Assembly (NCBI RefSeq): GCF_041261205.1
Contig: NZ_JBGCCH010000013.1
Span: 124,001-188,000 of the forward strand
Length of the DNA stretch: 64,000 bases
From: Catenulispora sp. MAP5-51
GTDB taxonomy: Bacteria; Actinomycetota; Actinomycetes; Streptomycetales; Catenulisporaceae
Reading direction: 5' to 3'
In this document: positions 20,361-58,706 of the stretch, one piece after another
Numbering within the stretch: position 1 is the stretch's first letter
How the letters are laid out: each line of letters starts with the position of its first letter
Notes under the pieces: generated by a model
The model's input: only the letters and a program-made list of their open reading frames with translations
Database searches by the model: none
Told to the model about the DNA's origin: nothing
Made by a program: the position numbers and the translations under genes

Positions 20361-21017
20361 ATGGCCAACCACGACATCGACAAGATCCGCACCGCGATCG
20401 CCCGGCAGGAGGGCCGCGTCCCCCGGGCCGTCATCCGCCCCGGCCGCAGCCATCGGCCGCATCTGCGCCCCGCCCCGCGCACCCGCGGCGAGTTCGCGCT
20501 CGCGCTGCTCTCGATCGTGTTGACGTTTCTGGCCCTGCTGTTCAGCGTTACCGCGGGACAGTTGGCGGCGTTCTGGATCGGGGACCACGCGCAGAGCGGC
20601 GGCAAGGCCTGGCCGGTGTTCCGTGCGCTGGGTTACAAGCCGTGGCGATTAGGTGGCCCATCAATACTGCGACGCGCAGCGTCTCCTCAACGGGCGGTGG
20701 TGGGAGACGGGAGGGCATATCTGTACCACGCGATGGTGGTGGAGTTCCGATTGCTGCCGTGGATCACGATCGTCGCGGTGTTGACGGCCACGGTGGCCCG
20801 GCCCTACCAGGCGGTGCTGGCAGCGTTCGTCGCGGGGATCGTGGAGAACAACTGGTGGCTGCACCTGCCGACCTATGACTTCCCGCAGTGGTTCGCGGAC
20901 CTGGTCGACAAGCAGCGGACGCTCCTGGAGCACCACGACCCCTGGCAGGCGTTCGGGATCCTGCTGGCCTCGGCTCTGGTGGCGATGGCCTGGGCGGAGC
21001 GGACCCAGGCCACGTAG
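20361..21017 (+). CDS. Membrane protein of the E2/JAMM-E1 cassette, carrying an in-frame repeat insertion
   Basis: 218 residues, starting one base after the previous stop. A basic N-terminal segment (PGRSHRPHLRPAPRTRG) precedes a membrane helix at about 46-70; two more hydrophobic segments lie near 128-158 and 196-210, with a WWLHLPTYDFPQWFADLVDKQ loop between them. Bases 20661-20715 are a copy of a dispersed repeat; it adds about 18 residues (PSILRRAASPQRAVVGDG) without breaking the frame. Function unknown; as the membrane component of the cassette it may be an effector or an anchor. Confidence 0.7.
   Translation: MANHDIDKIRTAIARQEGRVPRAVIRPGRSHRPHLRPAPRTRGEFALALLSIVLTFLALLFSVTAGQLAAFWIGDHAQSGGKAWPVFRALGYKPWRLGGPSILRRAASPQRAVVGDGRAYLYHAMVVEFRLLPWITIVAVLTATVARPYQAVLAAFVAGIVENNWWLHLPTYDFPQWFADLVDKQRTLLEHHDPWQAFGILLASALVAMAWAERTQAT
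20661..20715 (+). repeat. Dispersed 55-base repeat, copy A (inside a coding sequence)
   Basis: Starts TCAATACTGCG and ends GGGAGACGGGAGGG; it contains the inverted arms CGTCTCC and GGAGACG. Its 37-base core differs at three positions from the copy at 57853-57889 and at three from the inverted copy at 26200-26236. Here it is in frame within the membrane-protein gene. Confidence 0.8.
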
Positions 21018-23456: not shown

Positions 23457-25757
23457 TCACACCAGGTCGGCGGACCTCAGAGCCAGCAGTGCCTGGTAGT
23501 AGGCCAGCGTCGACTCAGCTCCCTGATTCTCGTTCGCCTGGGTCTCGCGCAGCCCGTCCCGGCCGCCGCCGCTGCTCGCGTCGTACAGCGGCAGGCCGAG
23601 CCGGTTCGCGCCGAGGAACCAGCCGAAGGCCCGCCTGGCCCGGTCGGCGTAGAACTCCCGGCCGGTGACCCGCCAGGCCTCGACACACGCCTCGACGACC
23701 GCGGCGGCGTCGATCGGCTGCTCGTCCCCTTCCCGGGCCGGACGCGGCGCCCCTTTGCGCCGCCACAGGTTCCCGACCAGGATCAGACGCCCCTCCGCTG
23801 CCCCCGGGCCGGTGTCCGCCGAGCCGGCCTCCCCGAGGCCGACCTGACCGAGGTACCAGTCCAGGGCCCGCAACGCGTCCGCCACCATCGCGGCGTCCCC
23901 GGCCCGCTCGCCGCCGGCCAGCAGCGCCTGCGGCAGGCGGGCGTTGTCGTAGGTGAGTTCGTCCTCGAACCATGGCCAGTCATCGGTGGAGGCGGCGCGG
24001 AACGCCGCCTCCAGCCGGGCCACTCCGAGCGCCAACTCCGGTCCTGGCTCTGGGACGCGCACGAGCCCCAGCAAGGCGTAGGCGGTCGAGCGGACCGTCG
24101 TCATCGCGCGCAGCGACGGCCGCGCCGCGTCCAGCAGCGCCGCGGCCCGTTCGCGGTACTTGTCCGGCACCGCGGCGCCGGCCGCGACACCGCCCAGGGA
24201 CCACAGCAGCCGCCCCACGTGGTCCCCGTTGTGCGGCTCGTCCAGCCACAGTCCGGACGCGTCGCGCATGTTGCGGGACCCGAGGGCGGCCGGGTCGTAG
24301 CCGGCTTCCAGGAAGGCCAGAGAGGTGTCCAGCCAGTCGTGCGGGTCGGCTCCCTTCAGTTCGCGGACGGGGACGTCGCACAGTCCCGCCGCCACGATCG
24401 CCAGCCGGGCGACGTCGTCGACGCAGTAGCCGGATCCGAGGTCGGGTTTGGCATGGTCGCTGAACTGGACGACCCCGGCGGAGTCGGTGATCCGGTTCAG
24501 ATGCGCGAGCTTGAGCTTGGGCACGTCGACCCGCGCCATGCCCGCGGCGTCGGTCGCGACCGCGTCCGGCACGGGGCGGCTGCGGCGGGCCGCGGTGGCC
24601 CTTGCGATCCCGGCGAACCGGCGGGCCACCGCGGTCCAGTGCAATCCCGCGCCCTGGGTCCTGGCGGCTTCCCTGGCGCGCTCCATGCGGTCCGGATCGG
24701 ACAGCAGGGCATGCAGCGCCTCGGCGTAGGCCTCCGGGTCCTCCGGCGGAACCGTGATGCCGGCGCCGCCGGCGAGCATGTCCTCGGCGTAGAAGTAAGC
24801 CGTCGACACGACCGGGCAGCCGGCGGCGACGGCGAAGGTGAGGGCTCCGGACGAGATCTGCTCGCGGGAGCGGTAGGGCGTGCAGAAGATCTCGGTGCGG
24901 GCCAGGACCGCGGAGATCTCGGCGTCGGACAGGAAGGTGTCCAGGAACACCACCCGGTCCTGCAACTGCGCCTCCTGGACTGCGGCGACCAGGTGGTCGC
25001 GATAGTTCTCGCCTTCTTGACGGGCGACCTCCGGGTGCGTGGAGCCGGCGATGAGATAGGTCACGTCGGGATGCCGCGCGGCGATCAGGCCCAGCGCCGC
25101 GATGGCGGTCTGCAGGCCCTTGTTGGGCGAGAGCAGACCGAAGGTGGACAGCAGCCGCCGGCCGGCCAGCCGGTCCAGCGTCGCGGCCACCTCGGGGCGC
25201 ACGGCGCCGCCGCTCCCCGGCGGCGGCGCTCCGTGCGGGACGTGCACGATCCGGTCCGGCGGAGCGATTCCGGTGTCGACCGCCAGCCGGCGCGCGGTCC
25301 CGGTGAACACGGTCACGGCCGCGGCGTCGCGGCACAGCCGATACAGGGCGCCGGCCTGGGAAGGGCTCGGCTCGGAGAGCACCGTGTGCAGTGTGACCAG
25401 ATAGGGGACGCCGAGCCGGTGCAACTCGGCGGCGAAGTCCGTGATCCAGGCGCCATCGACGCCGCCGAAGATCCCGTACTCGTGCTGGATGACGACGGCG
25501 CCGACCCCGGAGGCGGCCACCTGCTGGGCCGCCTTGCGGTAGTCGGAGCGCTCGTCCTGGCGGATCACCGTCCGCACCGTTGCGGGGTAGGCCAGTCCGT
25601 CCCGGTCCAACGCGCAGACCTCCACGCGCACGTCCGGAGCAGCATCGTTGAGCGCGACGGCCAGGTCGCGCGAGTAGGTGGCGATGCCGCACCGTCGCGG
25701 CGGATACGTGGAAACGATCGCGAGTGTTATGCCGATGTTCGAGACAGTCCCTGCCAT
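23457..25757 (-). CDS. GT4 glycosyltransferase with a C-terminal alpha-helical domain
   Basis: 766 residues. Residues about 8-395 are a GT-B, GT4-family glycosyltransferase: STYPPRRCGIATYSRDLA at the N-terminus, HEYGIFGG, VPHGAPPP, LLSPNKGLQTAIAAL, and the donor-site block CTPYRSREQISSGALTFAVAAGCPVVST. A basic linker leads to a helical region of about 340 residues (YCVDDVARLAIVAAGL, MRDASGLWLDEPHNGDHVGRLLWSLGGVA, NENQGAESTLAYYQALLAL) that looks like an alpha/alpha-barrel sugar-binding or glycosidase-like fold. The same two-part architecture is common next to GH130 genes. Ribosome site GAGAGG precedes ATG 25757. Product glycan unknown; mannan-type is inferred. Confidence 0.8.
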   Translation of the reverse strand: MAGTVSNIGITLAIVSTYPPRRCGIATYSRDLAVALNDAAPDVRVEVCALDRDGLAYPATVRTVIRQDERSDYRKAAQQVAASGVGAVVIQHEYGIFGGVDGAWITDFAAELHRLGVPYLVTLHTVLSEPSPSQAGALYRLCRDAAAVTVFTGTARRLAVDTGIAPPDRIVHVPHGAPPPGSGGAVRPEVAATLDRLAGRRLLSTFGLLSPNKGLQTAIAALGLIAARHPDVTYLIAGSTHPEVARQEGENYRDHLVAAVQEAQLQDRVVFLDTFLSDAEISAVLARTEIFCTPYRSREQISSGALTFAVAAGCPVVSTAYFYAEDMLAGGAGITVPPEDPEAYAEALHALLSDPDRMERAREAARTQGAGLHWTAVARRFAGIARATAARRSRPVPDAVATDAAGMARVDVPKLKLAHLNRITDSAGVVQFSDHAKPDLGSGYCVDDVARLAIVAAGLCDVPVRELKGADPHDWLDTSLAFLEAGYDPAALGSRNMRDASGLWLDEPHNGDHVGRLLWSLGGVAAGAAVPDKYRERAAALLDAARPSLRAMTTVRSTAYALLGLVRVPEPGPELALGVARLEAAFRAASTDDWPWFEDELTYDNARLPQALLAGGERAGDAAMVADALRALDWYLGQVGLGEAGSADTGPGAAEGRLILVGNLWRRKGAPRPAREGDEQPIDAAAVVEACVEAWRVTGREFYADRARRAFGWFLGANRLGLPLYDASSGGGRDGLRETQANENQGAESTLAYYQALLALRSADLV

Positions 25758-25774
25758 GACCTCTCATACCTCTC

Positions 25775-25798
25775 TCCGTCGTCACTAAATACGACGGA
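25775..25798 (-). promoter_or_regulatory. Palindrome upstream of the GT4 gene
   Basis: Perfect 8-base arms TCCGTCGT (25775-25782) and ACGACGGA (25791-25798) with the AT-rich spacer CACTAAAT, 18 bases upstream of the start codon. Likely operator or transcript hairpin. Confidence 0.5.
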
Positions 25799-25958
25799 AC
25801 CGGCAAGTCACTCTAACGTTACTCAGCAGCCTGAATCAATACTCTTAGACGTATTGCCGGACGCATACCGGTGAGCAGCGCGGGATCCACACCGCCTTTG
25901 GCAAACCGCTGAACGGCGGAAAAAAGCCCGCCCCACCTGCGCCTGTGACGTGGGTCGC

Positions 25959-25991
25959 TTGACAAGCCCCCAGGTGCCTCGTGGTTTAATA
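25959..25991 (+). promoter_or_regulatory. Promoter of the cysteine-rich small ORF
   Basis: A TTTAAT -10 box (25985-25990) sits six bases before the ATG at 25997, placing the expected transcription start on the start codon itself (leaderless mRNA). TTGACA is present at 25959-25964 but its 20-base spacing is too long for a normal -35, so it may not be used. Confidence 0.5.
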
Positions 25992-25996
25992 GCGCC

Positions 25997-26095
25997 ATGA
26001 ACGGCGCTTGCATCACGTGCTGCGCGACCTGCCATGGGACGAAAGCCCATATGGCCGGCCGCGTATGCCGCATGCGCCGAATGTGCGGCCGCTGA
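25997..26095 (+). CDS. Leaderless cysteine-rich small ORF (32 residues)
   Basis: Encodes a 32-residue peptide beginning MNGACITCCATCHG, with six cysteines (residues 5, 8, 9, 12, 24 and 30) and two histidines. Four cysteine codons fall within codons 5-12. Mycobacterial leaderless poly-cysteine small ORFs are known to act as cysteine-responsive attenuators of the genes behind them, and this one has the same arrangement: -10 box six bases before ATG and a cysteine cluster near the start. The next downstream gene (26467) is not a recognised sulfur gene, so its target is unclear. A small zinc-knuckle-like peptide is the alternative. Confidence 0.5.
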   Translation: MNGACITCCATCHGTKAHMAGRVCRMRRMCGR

Positions 26096-26466
26096 CGTCC
26101 GATAGCCCGCTGGTACGGAAAGAGCGAGGGTTCGCCCCCGCTTCATCCGGAGGGCACCTTCCAGCCGCCGTACTCCTGTAGAGGTAACTCTGATGACACC
26201 CCTCCCGTCTCCCACCACCGCCCGTCGTGGAGCCGCTCCGCGGCGCAGTGTTAATACCTCGAGGCCCCGCCTCAGCTCCTCCACTCTCATCCGCCGCACA
26301 CCGGATTACCGCTTGTGCCTGCTTGCGCACCGGGTCCCTCCCCGCGTTCATAAAACGTGCCGCCGAATGCGCTGGGGCGTACCAGCCAGCGTTGTCTGCG
26401 TACGCCCTTTCCGGACCGCCGACCCCCGTTTCGTGAGCTTTGCGACCCCGCTGAGGAGCACCCCCG
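26096..26466. other. 371-base gap after the cysteine-rich ORF
   Basis: No convincing gene. It contains an inverted copy of the dispersed 55-base repeat (26200-26254) and a stem GGGCGTAC (26375-26382) with GTACGCCC (26400-26407). A weak 105-codon frame from ATG 26193 has a ribosome-like GAGG but low-complexity translation and starts inside the repeat. The stem could be part of an attenuator for the downstream gene. Confidence 0.4.
26200..26254 (-). repeat. Dispersed 55-base repeat, copy B (intergenic, inverted)
   Basis: Reverse complement begins TTAACACTGCG and ends GGGAGACGGGAGGG. The 21 bases at the GGGAGG end are identical to copy A. Confidence 0.78.
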
Positions 26467-27090
26467 ATGGACCCCCGCCGCCTGGAGAAGATCTACGACG
26501 CCGTCCGTGACGAGCTGGCCGGCCTGGACCGCTACGAGATCGAGCAGCGCGCCTGCGTGGCCCGCGCCCGCTGGCACGCCGCCTCGACAAGCCCGAACGC
26601 CAATCCTGAACAACGGGCCCTGGCCGGGGCCCGCGCCGCGGCCATCGGCCGGATCCTGATCCACCTGCGGCGCACCTGGACCGACGAGTACGACGCCGCC
26701 GACCACGCGGCCCGCGCCCTGGCCGCCGAGCGCGTCGACCCCGAGGTGTCCGCGAGCGTGCGGGCGGCCGGGCACCCGGTCGGGGCCCGGGTGGAGGTCG
26801 TCGGCGAGGAGCGCACCGGGGTCGTGCAGCAGATCCTGGTCTCCCGCGAGGAGGACGGGTACTACGCGCGCTGGTACGTCGTGCACGTCGCCGAACTGCA
26901 GCTGTGCCGCGCCTACGGCTGCGACGAGCTGGAGACCCTGGAGCCGGAGCAGGCTCCGCTGGCACCGGCCGCGCAGCACTCGGCGGCCTCCTTCGCCGCG
27001 CTGGCCGAGCGGGCCGAGCGCGCCGACCGGGGCGCGGTGACGGTGCGGCACGGGCAGCGCAACGGCCGGCGGGTGCTGGCCGCGGCCTGA
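26467..27090 (+). CDS. Unknown 207-residue protein
   Basis: No family recognised. The first 100 residues are predicted helical and charged (RRLEKIYDAVRDELAGLDRYEIEQRACVARARW), followed by a small beta-rich module resembling an SH3-like barrel (GARVEVVGEERTGVVQQILVSREEDGYYARWYVVHVAELQLC) and an Ala-rich helical tail ending in a basic segment (RHGQRNGRRVLAAA). ATG 26467 has AGGAG upstream. It lies 370 bases behind the cysteine-rich leader ORF and might be controlled by it. Two cysteines occur close together near residues 142 and 146. Confidence 0.6.
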   Translation: MDPRRLEKIYDAVRDELAGLDRYEIEQRACVARARWHAASTSPNANPEQRALAGARAAAIGRILIHLRRTWTDEYDAADHAARALAAERVDPEVSASVRAAGHPVGARVEVVGEERTGVVQQILVSREEDGYYARWYVVHVAELQLCRAYGCDELETLEPEQAPLAPAAQHSAASFAALAERAERADRGAVTVRHGQRNGRRVLAAA

Positions 27091-27396: not shown

Positions 27397-29250
27397 TCAC
27401 CGCCGGAAGAAGTCCCGCACGTTCACCAGCAGCAGCACCAGCGCGGCGATGCCCATCGCGACCAGGAACGCGTCGCGGGCGTGGCGTGCCGCGTACTCCA
27501 GGACGCTGATCACCACGCCGGCGCCGACCAGGATCACCGCGAGGCTGACCGCGGTGGTCAGCAGGCGGCGGCGGGCCAGGGACTCCAGGGCGGCGAAGAC
27601 CACCAGGATGGCCAGCAGGGTCGGGATCTTCTGGCGGTCGTCGGGCAGCAGCAGGACCGTCGCCACCGCCAGGAACAGCAGCGGGACGCTGACCGCGGCC
27701 CAGATCTGCAGCAGGATGCCGTGGTGCTTGCGGTCGCCGGGGTCGTACGGCTTGTGGGAGCGGGCGACGTGCTCCTGCGGATCCTGCGGCGGCGGGCCGC
27801 CGCGCCGCAACACGTCCGCGTGGACCGCGCGCTCCTCGGCCAGCGCGGTGCGCTCCCGGATCAGGCTCATGACCGACTGCTCGGCGACCCGCGCCTCGCC
27901 GAGGCGCTCGGCCGCGGCCTTGGCGGTCTGGAATTCCGTGCTCAGGGACCGGACTTCGGCGTGGCGGTCGCGGGCTCCCTGCTGCAGGGCCACGGTCTGC
28001 TCGTCGGCGTCGGCGATGCGGACGTCGAGGTCGGCGATGCGGCTCTGGAGGCTGTGCGCCAGGCCGGTGTCGTCCGGGGACACCTTGTGCAGGCCGGCCC
28101 AGCCGAGGGGGTCGGCCCAGGAGAAGCGGACGGTGCCGTCGCGCTCGTAGCGCGGGCCGGCCGGGGCCCGCTCGCCGCCGGCCCAGTCCCGGGTGTCGAT
28201 GCCCCACAGGCCGCGGAAGCCGCGCACCCAGGGGGTGTCGTCGTCGATGAGGACCGGCTGCCATTCGCGGTCCTGGCCGGGGCCGACCCGGGTGCCGTCG
28301 CCGCGCGCGTAGTCGATGAAGGGGATGCCGAAGCCGTGGTCCTGGCTGCGGGCCCGGCGCAGGATCACCTCCGCCGCGCGCTTCCACCAGCGGGCCAGCG
28401 TGCCCAGGAAGCGGGGGTTCACAGTAACGAGGTAGTCGCCGGCCAGGAAGGCCCCGGAGTGGGAGCCGGCTCCGGCGAAGACGACGGGATGGGTGCCCTC
28501 GGCCACGGTGAGGTCGGGGTCGTCCCAGCGGCGGCGGAGGTCGTCGCCGGTGTAGTCGTGCGAGGAGAAGGCGACCCAGCGCGGGGACACGGTGCTTGAC
28601 GGGGACACGGTGCTCGGCCCCTCGGCGCTGGCGTCCTGGTCCTCGGCGAGGTAGACGGTCACCATCTCCCAGTCGGCCTCGTGGTCGTTGACCCCGCCGA
28701 AGGTGGAGCGCCAGTCGTTGGCCGCGTAGAAGTACCAGTACTGCAGGATGACGTAGCCGCCTTGGCGCACCACGCGGCCGTAGTACGGAGACGCTTGCGC
28801 CCCGCCGCCGGCGTGGTACTGCTCGGCTGCCTTGGTCATCACGCCGCCGGGCACCGTGCCGCGGATCAGCAGGCTCAGCCGGAGCAGCACGTCGATCAGG
28901 CGCGCGATGAACCCGACGGCCGCGAGCCGGCCGGTGCGGCGGATGCCGGTGGGGTGCCCTTTGCGCCAGCGGCGGACCTCGCCGCTGCCGGCGGGTTTGA
29001 GGACGTAGCGCAGGAACAGCGGGCGGCCGGGGTGCCGCTCGGCGGCCGCCAGCAGGCTCGCGAGGTCGAGCTCCCCGGCCGGGACCAGCTCGGTCTGTTT
29101 GTCGCCGTCGTGCCACAGGCCGGCCGCGGCGATGTAGCGCTCGATGTCGGTCGGGAGGAAGTACTCGCCCTTGGTGTAGGCCAGGATCGGTTCGTGGGCG
29201 CGGAGCAGGGCGAGGTCGTCCTGGGACGGGGCGGGATCGGCGGCAGTCAT
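27397..29250 (-). CDS. Vps62-like membrane protein
   Basis: 617 residues. The first half carries the Vps62/DUF946 signature: GGYVILQYWYFYAANDWR, followed by NDHEADWEMVTVYL, VAFSSHDYTGDDLRRRW, and VVFAGAGSHSGAFLAGDYLV. Residues about 435-505 form a coiled coil (LQSRIADLDVRIADADEQTVALQQGARDRHAEVRSL). Four membrane segments follow near the C-terminus (510-615). Bacterial members of this group have no settled role; a lipase/phospholipase-like or membrane-remodelling function has been supposed. A short in-gene duplication gives STVSP twice near residue 215-224. Unlinked to its neighbours by strand and by terminator. Confidence 0.65.
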   Translation of the reverse strand: MTAADPAPSQDDLALLRAHEPILAYTKGEYFLPTDIERYIAAAGLWHDGDKQTELVPAGELDLASLLAAAERHPGRPLFLRYVLKPAGSGEVRRWRKGHPTGIRRTGRLAAVGFIARLIDVLLRLSLLIRGTVPGGVMTKAAEQYHAGGGAQASPYYGRVVRQGGYVILQYWYFYAANDWRSTFGGVNDHEADWEMVTVYLAEDQDASAEGPSTVSPSSTVSPRWVAFSSHDYTGDDLRRRWDDPDLTVAEGTHPVVFAGAGSHSGAFLAGDYLVTVNPRFLGTLARWWKRAAEVILRRARSQDHGFGIPFIDYARGDGTRVGPGQDREWQPVLIDDDTPWVRGFRGLWGIDTRDWAGGERAPAGPRYERDGTVRFSWADPLGWAGLHKVSPDDTGLAHSLQSRIADLDVRIADADEQTVALQQGARDRHAEVRSLSTEFQTAKAAAERLGEARVAEQSVMSLIRERTALAEERAVHADVLRRGGPPPQDPQEHVARSHKPYDPGDRKHHGILLQIWAAVSVPLLFLAVATVLLLPDDRQKIPTLLAILVVFAALESLARRRLLTTAVSLAVILVGAGVVISVLEYAARHARDAFLVAMGIAALVLLLVNVRDFFRR

Positions 29251-29295: not shown

Positions 29296-30060
29296 TCAGC
29301 GTGTCGTGAAGGCCCCGCCGTTCACGTGGATGGTCTGACCGGTGATCTGCCGCGCCCCGGCCGAGGCCAGGAAGAAGACCGTCTCGGCGATGTCGTTCGG
29401 CACGCCGGCCCGCTTGGTGTGCGTCTCGGCGATCAGGGCCTGCTCGCGCGTGTCGGTCATGGCGCCCTGGAAGAAGCCGGTGTCGGCGATGTATCCGGGC
29501 GCGATCACGTTGGCGGTGACGCCGCGCGGACCGAGCTCGGCCGACAGCATCGCGTACCAGGCGGCCAGGGCGGCCTTGGAAGCGCCGTAGGAGCCGCCGC
29601 GGCGTTCGGAGCCGATGGTGCCGACGGCGAGCACGGTGCCGCCGGGAGCCAGGACCGGCTTGAGGGCGGTGGTGGTCAGGACGGCGCTGAGCAGGTTGCC
29701 GTCGAGGTCGGCCCGCCATTGGGCGAGCGCGGCCTCCAGCTCGGTGGCATCCGGTCCCGGCTGCGCGGCGCCCAGGCCGCCGGCCGCGTTGACCAGGACG
29801 TCAAGGGTCTCGAACCGGGCCGCGAGGGCCTCGACGGCACGCGGGTCGGTGGCGTCACAGACCACGCCGGTACAGACCACGCCGGTACAGACCACGCCGG
29901 TACAGACCACGCCGACCGCGCCGAGGTCCTTCGCGACGCTCTCGACGAGGTGCTCGCGGCGGCCGGTGATGACGACATCGGCGCCGTCGGCGAGGAAGCG
30001 TTCGGCGACGGCGCGGCCGATGCCACTGGTGCCGCCGGTGACGAGGACGCTGCGGGGCAT
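29296..30060 (-). CDS. SDR-family oxidoreductase with an internal tandem repeat
   Basis: 254 residues, classical SDR: TGGTSGIGRAVAERF (cofactor motif, about 8-22), NAAG (91-94), catalytic YxxxK in SYGASKAALAAWY and PGYIADTGF. After strand 3 there is VVCTG repeated three times followed by VVC, where ordinary SDRs have one VVCDATD; three 15-base tandem copies (29861-29905) have been added in frame. The aspartate that follows still aligns. The insert is near the cofactor pocket and may affect activity. It is divergent from a MarR regulator, which probably controls it. Substrate unknown. Confidence 0.85.
   Translation of the reverse strand: MPRSVLVTGGTSGIGRAVAERFLADGADVVITGRREHLVESVAKDLGAVGVVCTGVVCTGVVCTGVVCDATDPRAVEALAARFETLDVLVNAAGGLGAAQPGPDATELEAALAQWRADLDGNLLSAVLTTTALKPVLAPGGTVLAVGTIGSERRGGSYGASKAALAAWYAMLSAELGPRGVTANVIAPGYIADTGFFQGAMTDTREQALIAETHTKRAGVPNDIAETVFFLASAGARQITGQTIHVNGGAFTTR
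29861..29914 (-). repeat. 15-base in-frame tandem repeat in the SDR gene
   Basis: Three full copies of ACCACGCCGGTACAG (29861-29905) plus a partial fourth (29906-29914). On the minus strand they encode VVCTG units. Confidence 0.9.
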
Positions 30061-57827: not shown

Positions 57828-58706
57828 GTGACCAGTCAATCAGCGGCGCGAAGCGTCTCCTTAACGGGCGGCGGTGGGAGACGGGTGGGAATTCTCGTCG
57901 TGGAGGACGAACCGACTCTCGCCGAGGCGATCGCGGCCCGGCTGCGGGCCGAGGGCTTCGCCACCCACCTGGCCGGGGACGGTCCGGCCGCGGTGCGCAC
58001 CGCCCAGGAGCAGTTGCCGGACCTGATCGTCCTGGACGTGATGCTGCCCGGCTTCGACGGCCTGGAGGTGTGCCGCCGCATCCAGGCCGAGCGGGCCGTC
58101 CCGGTGCTGATGGTCACCGCGCGTGACGACGAGAGCGATCTGATCGAGGGGCTGCGCACCGGCGCCGACGACTATCTGACCAAGCCGTTCTCGATGCGCG
58201 AGCTGATCGCGCGGGTGCACGCCCTGCTCCGGCGCGTGGAGCGCGCCGCGGAGATCGGTTCCAACGGCGGCGCCCCGGCCGAGAGCAACGTCGTGCCGAT
58301 CGGGACCGGCTTCGGGCCGGGCACCACCGCCGTGCGCAAGCCCCAGCCGCTGCGTTTCATGGCCATCGGCACCAGCGCCGGCACCCGGCTGCTGGAGATC
58401 GACCCGGCCCAGCGGCGGGTGCGGGTCGGGGCCGGGCGCTCGCAGGACGAGGCGCACCTGACGCCCACCGAGTTCGACCTGCTGGCCTGCCTGGCCGGGC
58501 AGCCGCGCACCGTCCTGACCCGGGAGAAGCTGCTGGCCGAGGTGTGGGACTGGCTGGACGCCTCCGGCACCCGCACCGTCGACAGCCACGTCAAGGCCGT
58601 GCGCCGCAAGATCGGCGCGGACTGGATCCGCACCGTGCACGGCGTCGGCTACGCGCTGGAGGCCGAGCCGATCCTGGGCGACGCGCTGGAGGCGGCCGGC
58701 CGATGA
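57828..58706 (+). CDS. OmpR-family response regulator with an extended linker
   Basis: 292 residues from GTG 57828. Receiver at about 20-138: E26/D27, phospho-acceptor D70, T97 and K119. The winged-helix DNA-binding domain is about 190-280 (LTPTEFDLLACLAGQPRTVLTREKLLAEVWDWLDASGTRTVDSHVKAVRRKIG). A 50-residue insert (about 140-188) separates them, longer than usual. The first 19 residues derive from a copy of the dispersed repeat (57836-57889), so the ancestral start may have been at GILVVEDEP. Last codon overlaps the histidine kinase start (ATGA), making a standard pair. Confidence 0.85.
   Translation: MTSQSAARSVSLTGGGGRRVGILVVEDEPTLAEAIAARLRAEGFATHLAGDGPAAVRTAQEQLPDLIVLDVMLPGFDGLEVCRRIQAERAVPVLMVTARDDESDLIEGLRTGADDYLTKPFSMRELIARVHALLRRVERAAEIGSNGGAPAESNVVPIGTGFGPGTTAVRKPQPLRFMAIGTSAGTRLLEIDPAQRRVRVGAGRSQDEAHLTPTEFDLLACLAGQPRTVLTREKLLAEVWDWLDASGTRTVDSHVKAVRRKIGADWIRTVHGVGYALEAEPILGDALEAAGR
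57836..57889 (+). repeat. Dispersed 55-base repeat, copy C (start of response regulator)
   Basis: One base shorter than copies A and B: TCAATCAGCGG at the left end, GGGAGACGGGTGGG at the right. It supplies the first codons of the response regulator. Confidence 0.78.

Follow-up and report, generated by a model that had tools for sequence, protein, structure and literature searches.

The window analysed here, 64,000 nucleotides of Catenulispora sp. MAP5-51, belongs to a 10.9-Mb genome. Within it a short frame rich in cysteine codons (sORF1) precedes a gene for a 207-aa protein at 26467, with a probable second frame (ORF2) beginning between them. Ten loci in nine of the ten Catenulispora genomes, including two in a single MAG (G007a and G007b), keep the promoter-like hexamers, start, stop, frame and six cysteine codons of sORF1, and these are the ten loci referred to below. 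The features, all on the plus strand, are as follows.

25959..25964, plus strand: -35-like TTGACA, invariant in all ten loci and 20 nt 5' of the -10 in all of them
25985..25990, plus strand: -10-like TTTAAT, at -12 to -7 relative to the ATG, invariant in 10/10 loci
25997..26095, plus strand: sORF1, presumed leaderless leader ORF of 32 codons, six of them Cys
26002..26079, plus strand: predicted hairpin I, taking in nearly all of sORF1; arms begin CGGCGC and end GCGCCG
26057..26090, plus strand: predicted alternative helix GGCCGCGTAT / ATGTGCGGCC, which excludes hairpins I and II
26078..26086, plus strand: motif CGAATGTGC, in frame (R-M-C) and common to metN leaders
26083..26173, plus strand: predicted hairpin II, in which the sORF1 stop region (26083-26094) pairs with 26162-26173
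26180..26191, plus strand: small hairpin AGAG-GTAA-CTCT with the ORF2 Shine-Dalgarno; pairs kept in 10/10 loci, two via G-U
26193..26510, plus strand: probable ORF2, with an AGAGG Shine-Dalgarno eight bases from the ATG; reading frame conserved as far as ...HKTCRRMRWGVPASVVCVRP or beyond
26364..26372, plus strand: the motif again, as CGAATGCGC, here in frame with ORF2; invariant in 10/10 loci
26375..26407, plus strand: 8-bp hairpin GGGCGTAC...GTACGCCC, 3' of the second motif; stem identical in 10/10 loci, no T-run
26467..27090, plus strand: orphan 207-aa gene, the presumed target

sORF1 opens with the ATG at 25997, closes with a TGA ending at 26095 and encodes MNGACITCCATCHGTKAHMAGRVCRMRRMCGR, with cysteines at codons 5, 8, 9, 12, 24 and 30 and methionines at 26 and 29. 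The earlier note had described a 32-codon frame with six cysteines, four of them among codons 5-12, and a TTTAAT six bases before its ATG; the sequence agrees on both points. For a leaderless start the -10 box is expected to span positions -12 to -7 relative to the ATG, and from this spacing we consider the start of sORF1 probably leaderless. A sigma-70 scan of the upstream region found no promoter, because the spacer between the hexamers is 20 nt in every locus, where the scan spans 16-18 nt, and because TTTAAT has no A at position 2. A MerR-type promoter was entertained as the reason for the long spacer and rejected, as no consistent palindrome could be seen in it by eye. A gene on the minus strand at sORF1 was also rejected, since the open frames there extend into the poorly conserved stretch from -160 to -57.

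A second ORF at 26193, between the leader and the 26467 gene, is probable and was overlooked in the earlier note. From its ATG to the residues MR[WR]GVPA it measures 174, 120, 138, 120, 111, 120, 120, 174, 165 and 114 nt in the ten loci, in each case a multiple of three, while the stretches before and after (96-99 and 99-101 nt) are not in phase. In seven loci the core of ORF2 has a dN/dS of 0.20 in frame versus 0.80 and 1.18 in the other frames. Its last 22 codons, compared across all ten, carry hardly any frame signal (0.70 versus 0.80 and 0.85), and the whole frame lacks codon-position bias. The coding status of ORF2 is therefore mixed, the case for it being made by the seven-locus core and the frame-keeping indels, and we regard it as probably translated. 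ORF2 matches neither NF042936 nor NF042934 of the NCBIfam leader families. A dispersed, REP-like repeat, about 54 nt long and with GGAG plus a palindrome as its core, lies at 26200-26255, 20660-20715 and 57843-57889 (minus strand) of the window; it occurs at 25 places in the genome, the query included, and has copies in nine of the ten genus genomes. The loci of G000 and G009 carry a copy in ORF2 right after ATGACA, adding 54 nt in frame, a copy that G008 and G002, their nearest sequence relatives, lack.

The 207-aa protein was found in nine of the 60 genomes searched (our own included), all of them Catenulispora, at ten loci. It matches no Pfam or NCBIfam family and has no meaningful PDB match, and its AlphaFold2 model (mean pLDDT 47.7) is too poor for a fold search. 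It has no known tie to sulfur or cysteine. The earlier note had named the next gene after the leader an unknown protein; the 26467 gene is indeed an orphan, but the next ORF is probably the one at 26193, with its Shine-Dalgarno. Further along on the minus strand, a 617-aa protein (27397-29250) has a sub-threshold Pfam match to NPP1 (19.9 bits, cut-off 21), and a short-chain-dehydrogenase-like gene contains an in-frame tandem repeat (TGVVC repeated) at about 29855-29950.

Conservation of sORF1 within Catenulispora

Whether relatives preserve the cysteine codons upstream of the 26467 gene was a check proposed in the earlier note, and all six are kept in 10/10 loci, in one of them despite a 3-nt insertion that leaves the frame intact. 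The tenth genome of the genus, G003, is without both the 207-aa gene and the sORF1 element. Its copy of the divergent glycosyltransferase gene breaks off at residue 405 on the side where sORF1 would be expected, with three bases left to the end of the contig; the absence is uninformative because the contig stops before the sORF1 site.

The mean pairwise difference is 3.55% across sORF1, where 11 of 99 columns vary, 8.81% in the 97 nt from its stop to ORF2 and 30.57% in the stretch from -160 to -57. At fourfold sites it is 3.70% in sORF1, against 20.96% in the first 149 codons of the 207-aa gene. Since silent sites are constrained too, the nucleotide sequence of sORF1 itself matters. A dN/dS of 0.54 in frame, versus 1.38 and 6.07 in the other two frames, suggests a mild protein-level signal as well.

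The element is present in a single copy in its own genome. A covariance model run over 119 genomes of the order found it in nine, all Catenulispora, together with a marginal hit in G087 (E 0.0497). A nucleotide search of 293 genomes of the order returned short matches at 16 places in 15 genomes outside the genus, of which the 11 places fetched were rejected as relatives, being apparently chance matches and nearly all inside longer open frames; G002 carries a second nucleotide match, of 31 nt. A peptide search of 394 genomes of the class gave 13 weak matches beyond our own (best E 0.0036). The matches to sORF1 found beyond Catenulispora are marginal or apparently due to chance.

Likeness to metN leaders

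Passages of a study of Streptomyces lividans describe MetL, a 29-aa ORF upstream of metNIQ that is leaderless by RNA-seq and ends RCMCRRMCAF (PMC8079986). The sORF1 peptide ends RVCRMRRMCGR. The metN gene of our own genome is preceded by a 31-codon ORF, MIDTQSSRTSAATKAPRMMCGCMPSCRMCSC, and such Met/Cys-rich leader ORFs resembling MetL were observed at L101 (526-621) and L114-L120. In the seven loci of the genus where metN was found, the leader has TATAGT seven bases before its ATG and looks leaderless as well. Its peptide ends CRMC[SG]C in six of the seven and CRMYGC in the seventh.

The resemblance extends to the nucleotides. The last bases of the metN leader are TGTCGAATGTGC[AG]GCTGCTGA in three of the seven loci, versus CGCCGAATGTGCGGCCGCTGA for sORF1, and over the 18 nt before the stop the two leaders share 15 bases in G009 and G002 and 14 in G000. 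Among 6,897 distinct stop-aligned ends, drawn from the window and the loci, the outsiders matching at 14 or more of 18 positions were all of metN or MetL type, bar one; this exception (16/18) came from the sORF1 search itself and closes a longer frame. The ranking lends support but is no unbiased test: searches had contributed part of the set, and the two leaders were compared only once the likeness of their peptide ends had been noticed.

CGAATG is found in all seven metN leaders and in 12/12 MetL-type leaders of the same order (the best 12 of 46 places). The codon after it is TGC or CGC in 11 of the 12 and TGT in the other; in the metN leaders it is TGC in three, TGT in three and TAC in one. 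This change among Cys, Arg and Tyr favors a nucleotide signal rather than a cysteine codon. CGA makes up only one of 155 Arg codons in three genes of the window. Chance alone predicts 1.9 copies of the nine-base form CGAATGYGC per window; two were found, both inside the sORF1-ORF2 leader. The motif was tried as a transcription pause site and rejected: by the consensus G-10Y-1G+1 given in passages of PMC12288461 and PMC9291695, Y-1 and G+1 are present, but -10, where G is expected, is a pyrimidine in every sORF1 sequence (10/10) and metN leader (7/7) and in all but one of the 12 same-order leaders, the exception being L109 with G. One metN leader has A at +1.

MetL and the Catenulispora metN leader are the nearest known counterparts of sORF1 that we found in form: each has about 30 codons with Cys and Met codons before the stop, and no clear terminator. 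S. lividans MetL is leaderless by RNA-seq in the passages of PMC8079986, and sORF1 is presumed to be so from its promoter spacing. The in-frame CGAATG with its rare CGA is shared by sORF1 and the MetL-type leaders of same-order relatives, as read from the relatives' DNA rather than that of S. lividans. As a mark of the type, CGAATG in frame before the stop was defined in this analysis and not by PMC8079986, and sORF1 has it. A stop region able to pair downstream is predicted for sORF1 and the Catenulispora metN leader alike. Unlike these leaders, sORF1 has an orphan target, an extra cysteine cluster at codons 5-12 and a near-frozen sequence, and it is followed by the probable ORF2, in which the motif recurs. 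It does not lie upstream of metN, which has its own leader; because of this and of the orphan downstream, we class sORF1 as MetL-like and not as a metN leader.

Compared over one set of six species, divergence is 16.9% for the metN leader ORF and 1.8% for sORF1, so that sORF1 carries constraint beyond that of an ordinary leader, which raises the question of a further role for its sequence. In an alternative reading, sORF1 would make a small Cys/His-rich protein (C-x2-CC-x2-CH...H...C...C) acting in trans, for example in metal binding or thiol sensing, with the RNA merely its message. The retention of the six cysteines and of His18 in 10/10 loci, the lower dN/dS in frame than out of frame and the conservation in excess of the metN leader all speak for a protein of this kind. 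However, the amino-acid constraint is mild (dN/dS 0.54) and fourfold sites are held as well (3.7% versus 21%), the 3' end is common at the nucleotide level to leaders whose peptides are otherwise different, His13 is replaced by Gln in one locus, and no family matches. We consider a trans-acting protein improbable, if the most credible of the alternatives.

Predicted RNA structure

The RNA from 25997 to 26198 folds at -89.5 kcal/mol (z -3.3), a value equaled by one of 200 shuffles, and the same full-length fold gives z between -1.9 and -4.8 in the ten loci, whose sequences are related and not independent. Hairpin I is more stable than dinucleotide shuffles in all ten (z -2.1 to -4.8). Against synonymous recodings it has no advantage in the five loci tested (z +0.43 to -0.83), and against codon-order permutations only a mild one (z -0.53 to -1.53). 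The arms of the alternative helix, 26057-26066 and 26081-26090, can pair in 10/10 sequences taken alone. When nt 8-40 of sORF1 were blocked to mimic a ribosome at the first cysteine cluster, the prediction for G000 and G007b replaced hairpin II by the alternative helix; in G005, the third of the three loci tested, the blocked fold lacks it. Predicted access to the ORF2 ribosome site in these three loci is nearly the same across states (0.08-0.24, mostly about 0.2). A double change is seen at only one of the 62 consensus pairs, so the evidence for structure in sORF1 is purely energetic.

The metN leader may form a similar pairing. Its stop region is predicted to pair with a stretch that lies 25-28 nt past the stop in six loci; in the seventh the distance is 92 nt. 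Seven of seven bases match in five loci and six in two; the first pair of this helix is A-U in four loci, G-C in two and broken in one. Shuffled downstream sequences match over 7 bp 10-25% of the time, and it is consequently the shared position and the double change that support the pairing. In the region of the metN leader corresponding to hairpin I, four of 25 pairs show a double change across six species and others are broken.

A search of 25750-26500 found no terminator-like site, the intrinsic terminator of a trp/his-type attenuator included. Rfam models came nowhere near cut-off at the sORF1 leader, and they likewise gave no match at two MetL loci of the same order, at a metN locus of Catenulispora or at a cysI locus. 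A further observation is that 26109-26117 (GCTGGTACG) is complementary over 9 nt to 26378-26386 (CGTACCAGC), in the hairpin after the second motif. By eye, this pairing includes one G-U in G007a and is broken in G005, and it may be a long-range contact or chance.

The depth of nucleotide conservation could instead mean that the locus makes a structured non-coding RNA or a protein-binding leader, in which the open frame is incidental or secondary. About 200 nt are near-invariant, synonymous sites included, divergence is still only 8.8% over the 97 nt past the stop, and the full-length fold is stable throughout the related loci, as such an RNA would lead one to expect. Yet covariation is almost absent, no Rfam family comes close, and the start, stop, frame and cysteine codons are all kept, even through the 3-nt insertion. 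We hold this reading to be unlikely too, and place it after the trans-acting protein.

Cysteine leaders and the proposed mechanism

In mycobacteria, leaderless, cysteine-enriched uORFs were reported in 2015 upstream of genes for cysteine metabolism and also of hypothetical ones (passages of PMC4633059), and cysteine-responsive attenuation in M. smegmatis is attributed to Canestrari 2020 as cited in passages of PMC9094748, PMC9031893 and PMC13236596. As described there, these polycysteine sORFs resemble sORF1 in being cysteine-rich, first in an operon and leaderless, the last presumed for sORF1, with regulation through ribosome speed, which for sORF1 is our proposal. sORF1 differs in having a single adjacent cysteine pair (codons 8-9), no cysteine gene downstream and no NCBIfam leader match, whether to NF042936 or NF042934, two families of small leader ORFs that are otherwise of its kind. 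Passages of Seliverstov 2005 (PMC1262725) propose cysteine leader ORFs for actinobacterial cys operons, without clear terminators. Those leaders share with sORF1 the cysteine codons in a short ORF and the lack of a conserved terminator; their cysteine run lies near the stop and their targets are cys or cbs.

The cysI gene of our own genome has a different putative leader, MNMSRAGIALVSRRHVDYGRLSSMVCTACTAL, with weak matches to NF042936 and NF042934 below their cut-offs. It was seen at L079 on the reverse strand, starting 173 nt before cysI, with RRHVDYGRLSSM; RHVD is kept in 10/10 loci of the genus and the two cysteine codons are not. Together with the sORF1 and metN leaders, this brings the putative cysteine-bearing leader frames of the genome to at least three. 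In the titles and passages of the literature searched, we found no description of the sORF1 locus or of the shared motif.

The earlier note had read sORF1 as a cysteine-sensing leader of the mycobacterial poly-cysteine type. A strict cysteine attenuator of that type would account for the leaderless layout, the six cysteine codons and the operon-like position, and the mycobacterial uORFs also precede hypothetical genes (passages of PMC4633059). But the single cysteine pair, the missing family match (the cysI leader at least matches weakly), a target without a known tie to cysteine and a 3' end that points to the metN leader class make sORF1 no plain copy, and we think it quite doubtful that this is what the locus encodes. 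What survives of the idea is the broader one of a sulfur amino-acid leader, given six cysteine codons kept throughout and a metN-like 3' end, with the qualification that the closest relative found is a leader rich in methionine as well as cysteine. That the frame arose by chance deserves almost no credence: small ORFs are common in GC-rich intergenic DNA, but a search of both window strands for ATG-started ORFs of 15-60 codons with four cysteines in codons 5-12 turned up sORF1 alone, none appeared in 40 single strands simulated with the same first-order composition, and the conservation of sORF1 in 10/10 loci refutes the idea.

We therefore favor, with somewhat better than even confidence, the reading that 25959-26466 is a MetL-like regulatory leader of the 26467 gene (and of ORF2) that senses cysteine and/or methionine. 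The resemblance of the sORF1 3' end to that of the metN leader of the genus is what makes a leader for sulfur amino acids our preferred reading. Conservation, the common 3' end and the potential to form hairpins are properties of the sequence, from which we infer the transcript start, translation, the effector and the direction of control. Hypothetically, transcription would begin at or beside the ATG at 25997, and ribosomes would load on the 5' AUG and read sORF1. Their pace over the six Cys codons (5, 8, 9, 12, 24 and 30) and Met codons 26 and 29 would set whether hairpin I re-forms, and also which partner the stop region takes, either the sequence just 5' of the ORF2 ribosome site, giving hairpin II, or the 3' half of sORF1. 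Hairpin II would reduce downstream expression through a translation block or factor-dependent termination, and when charged Cys (or Met) tRNA runs short, a stalled ribosome would relieve that effect. In this respect the leader would work like the leaderless metNIQ leader of Streptomyces (MetL) and the metN leader of the genus. Which amino acid is sensed, which of the two outputs is used and which sign the control has are assigned here by our interpretation of the analysis.

More tentatively, and as a possibility we would put below even odds, an unrecorded class of actinobacterial leader RNA may be marked by CGAATGYGC when it lies close to the end of a short frame rich in Cys and Met codons and a hairpin follows. 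This class would serve metN in bacteria of the Streptomyces order and, in Catenulispora, also an orphan gene with tandem leaders (sORF1 and ORF2), which would bring that gene into the sulfur amino-acid regulon as a new member. From the sequence, such membership is plausible. If it is true, a nucleotide motif common to the leaders of different genera could be tested as a regulatory signal, and control by sulfur amino acids would be the first hint at the function of a gene without a recognised family.
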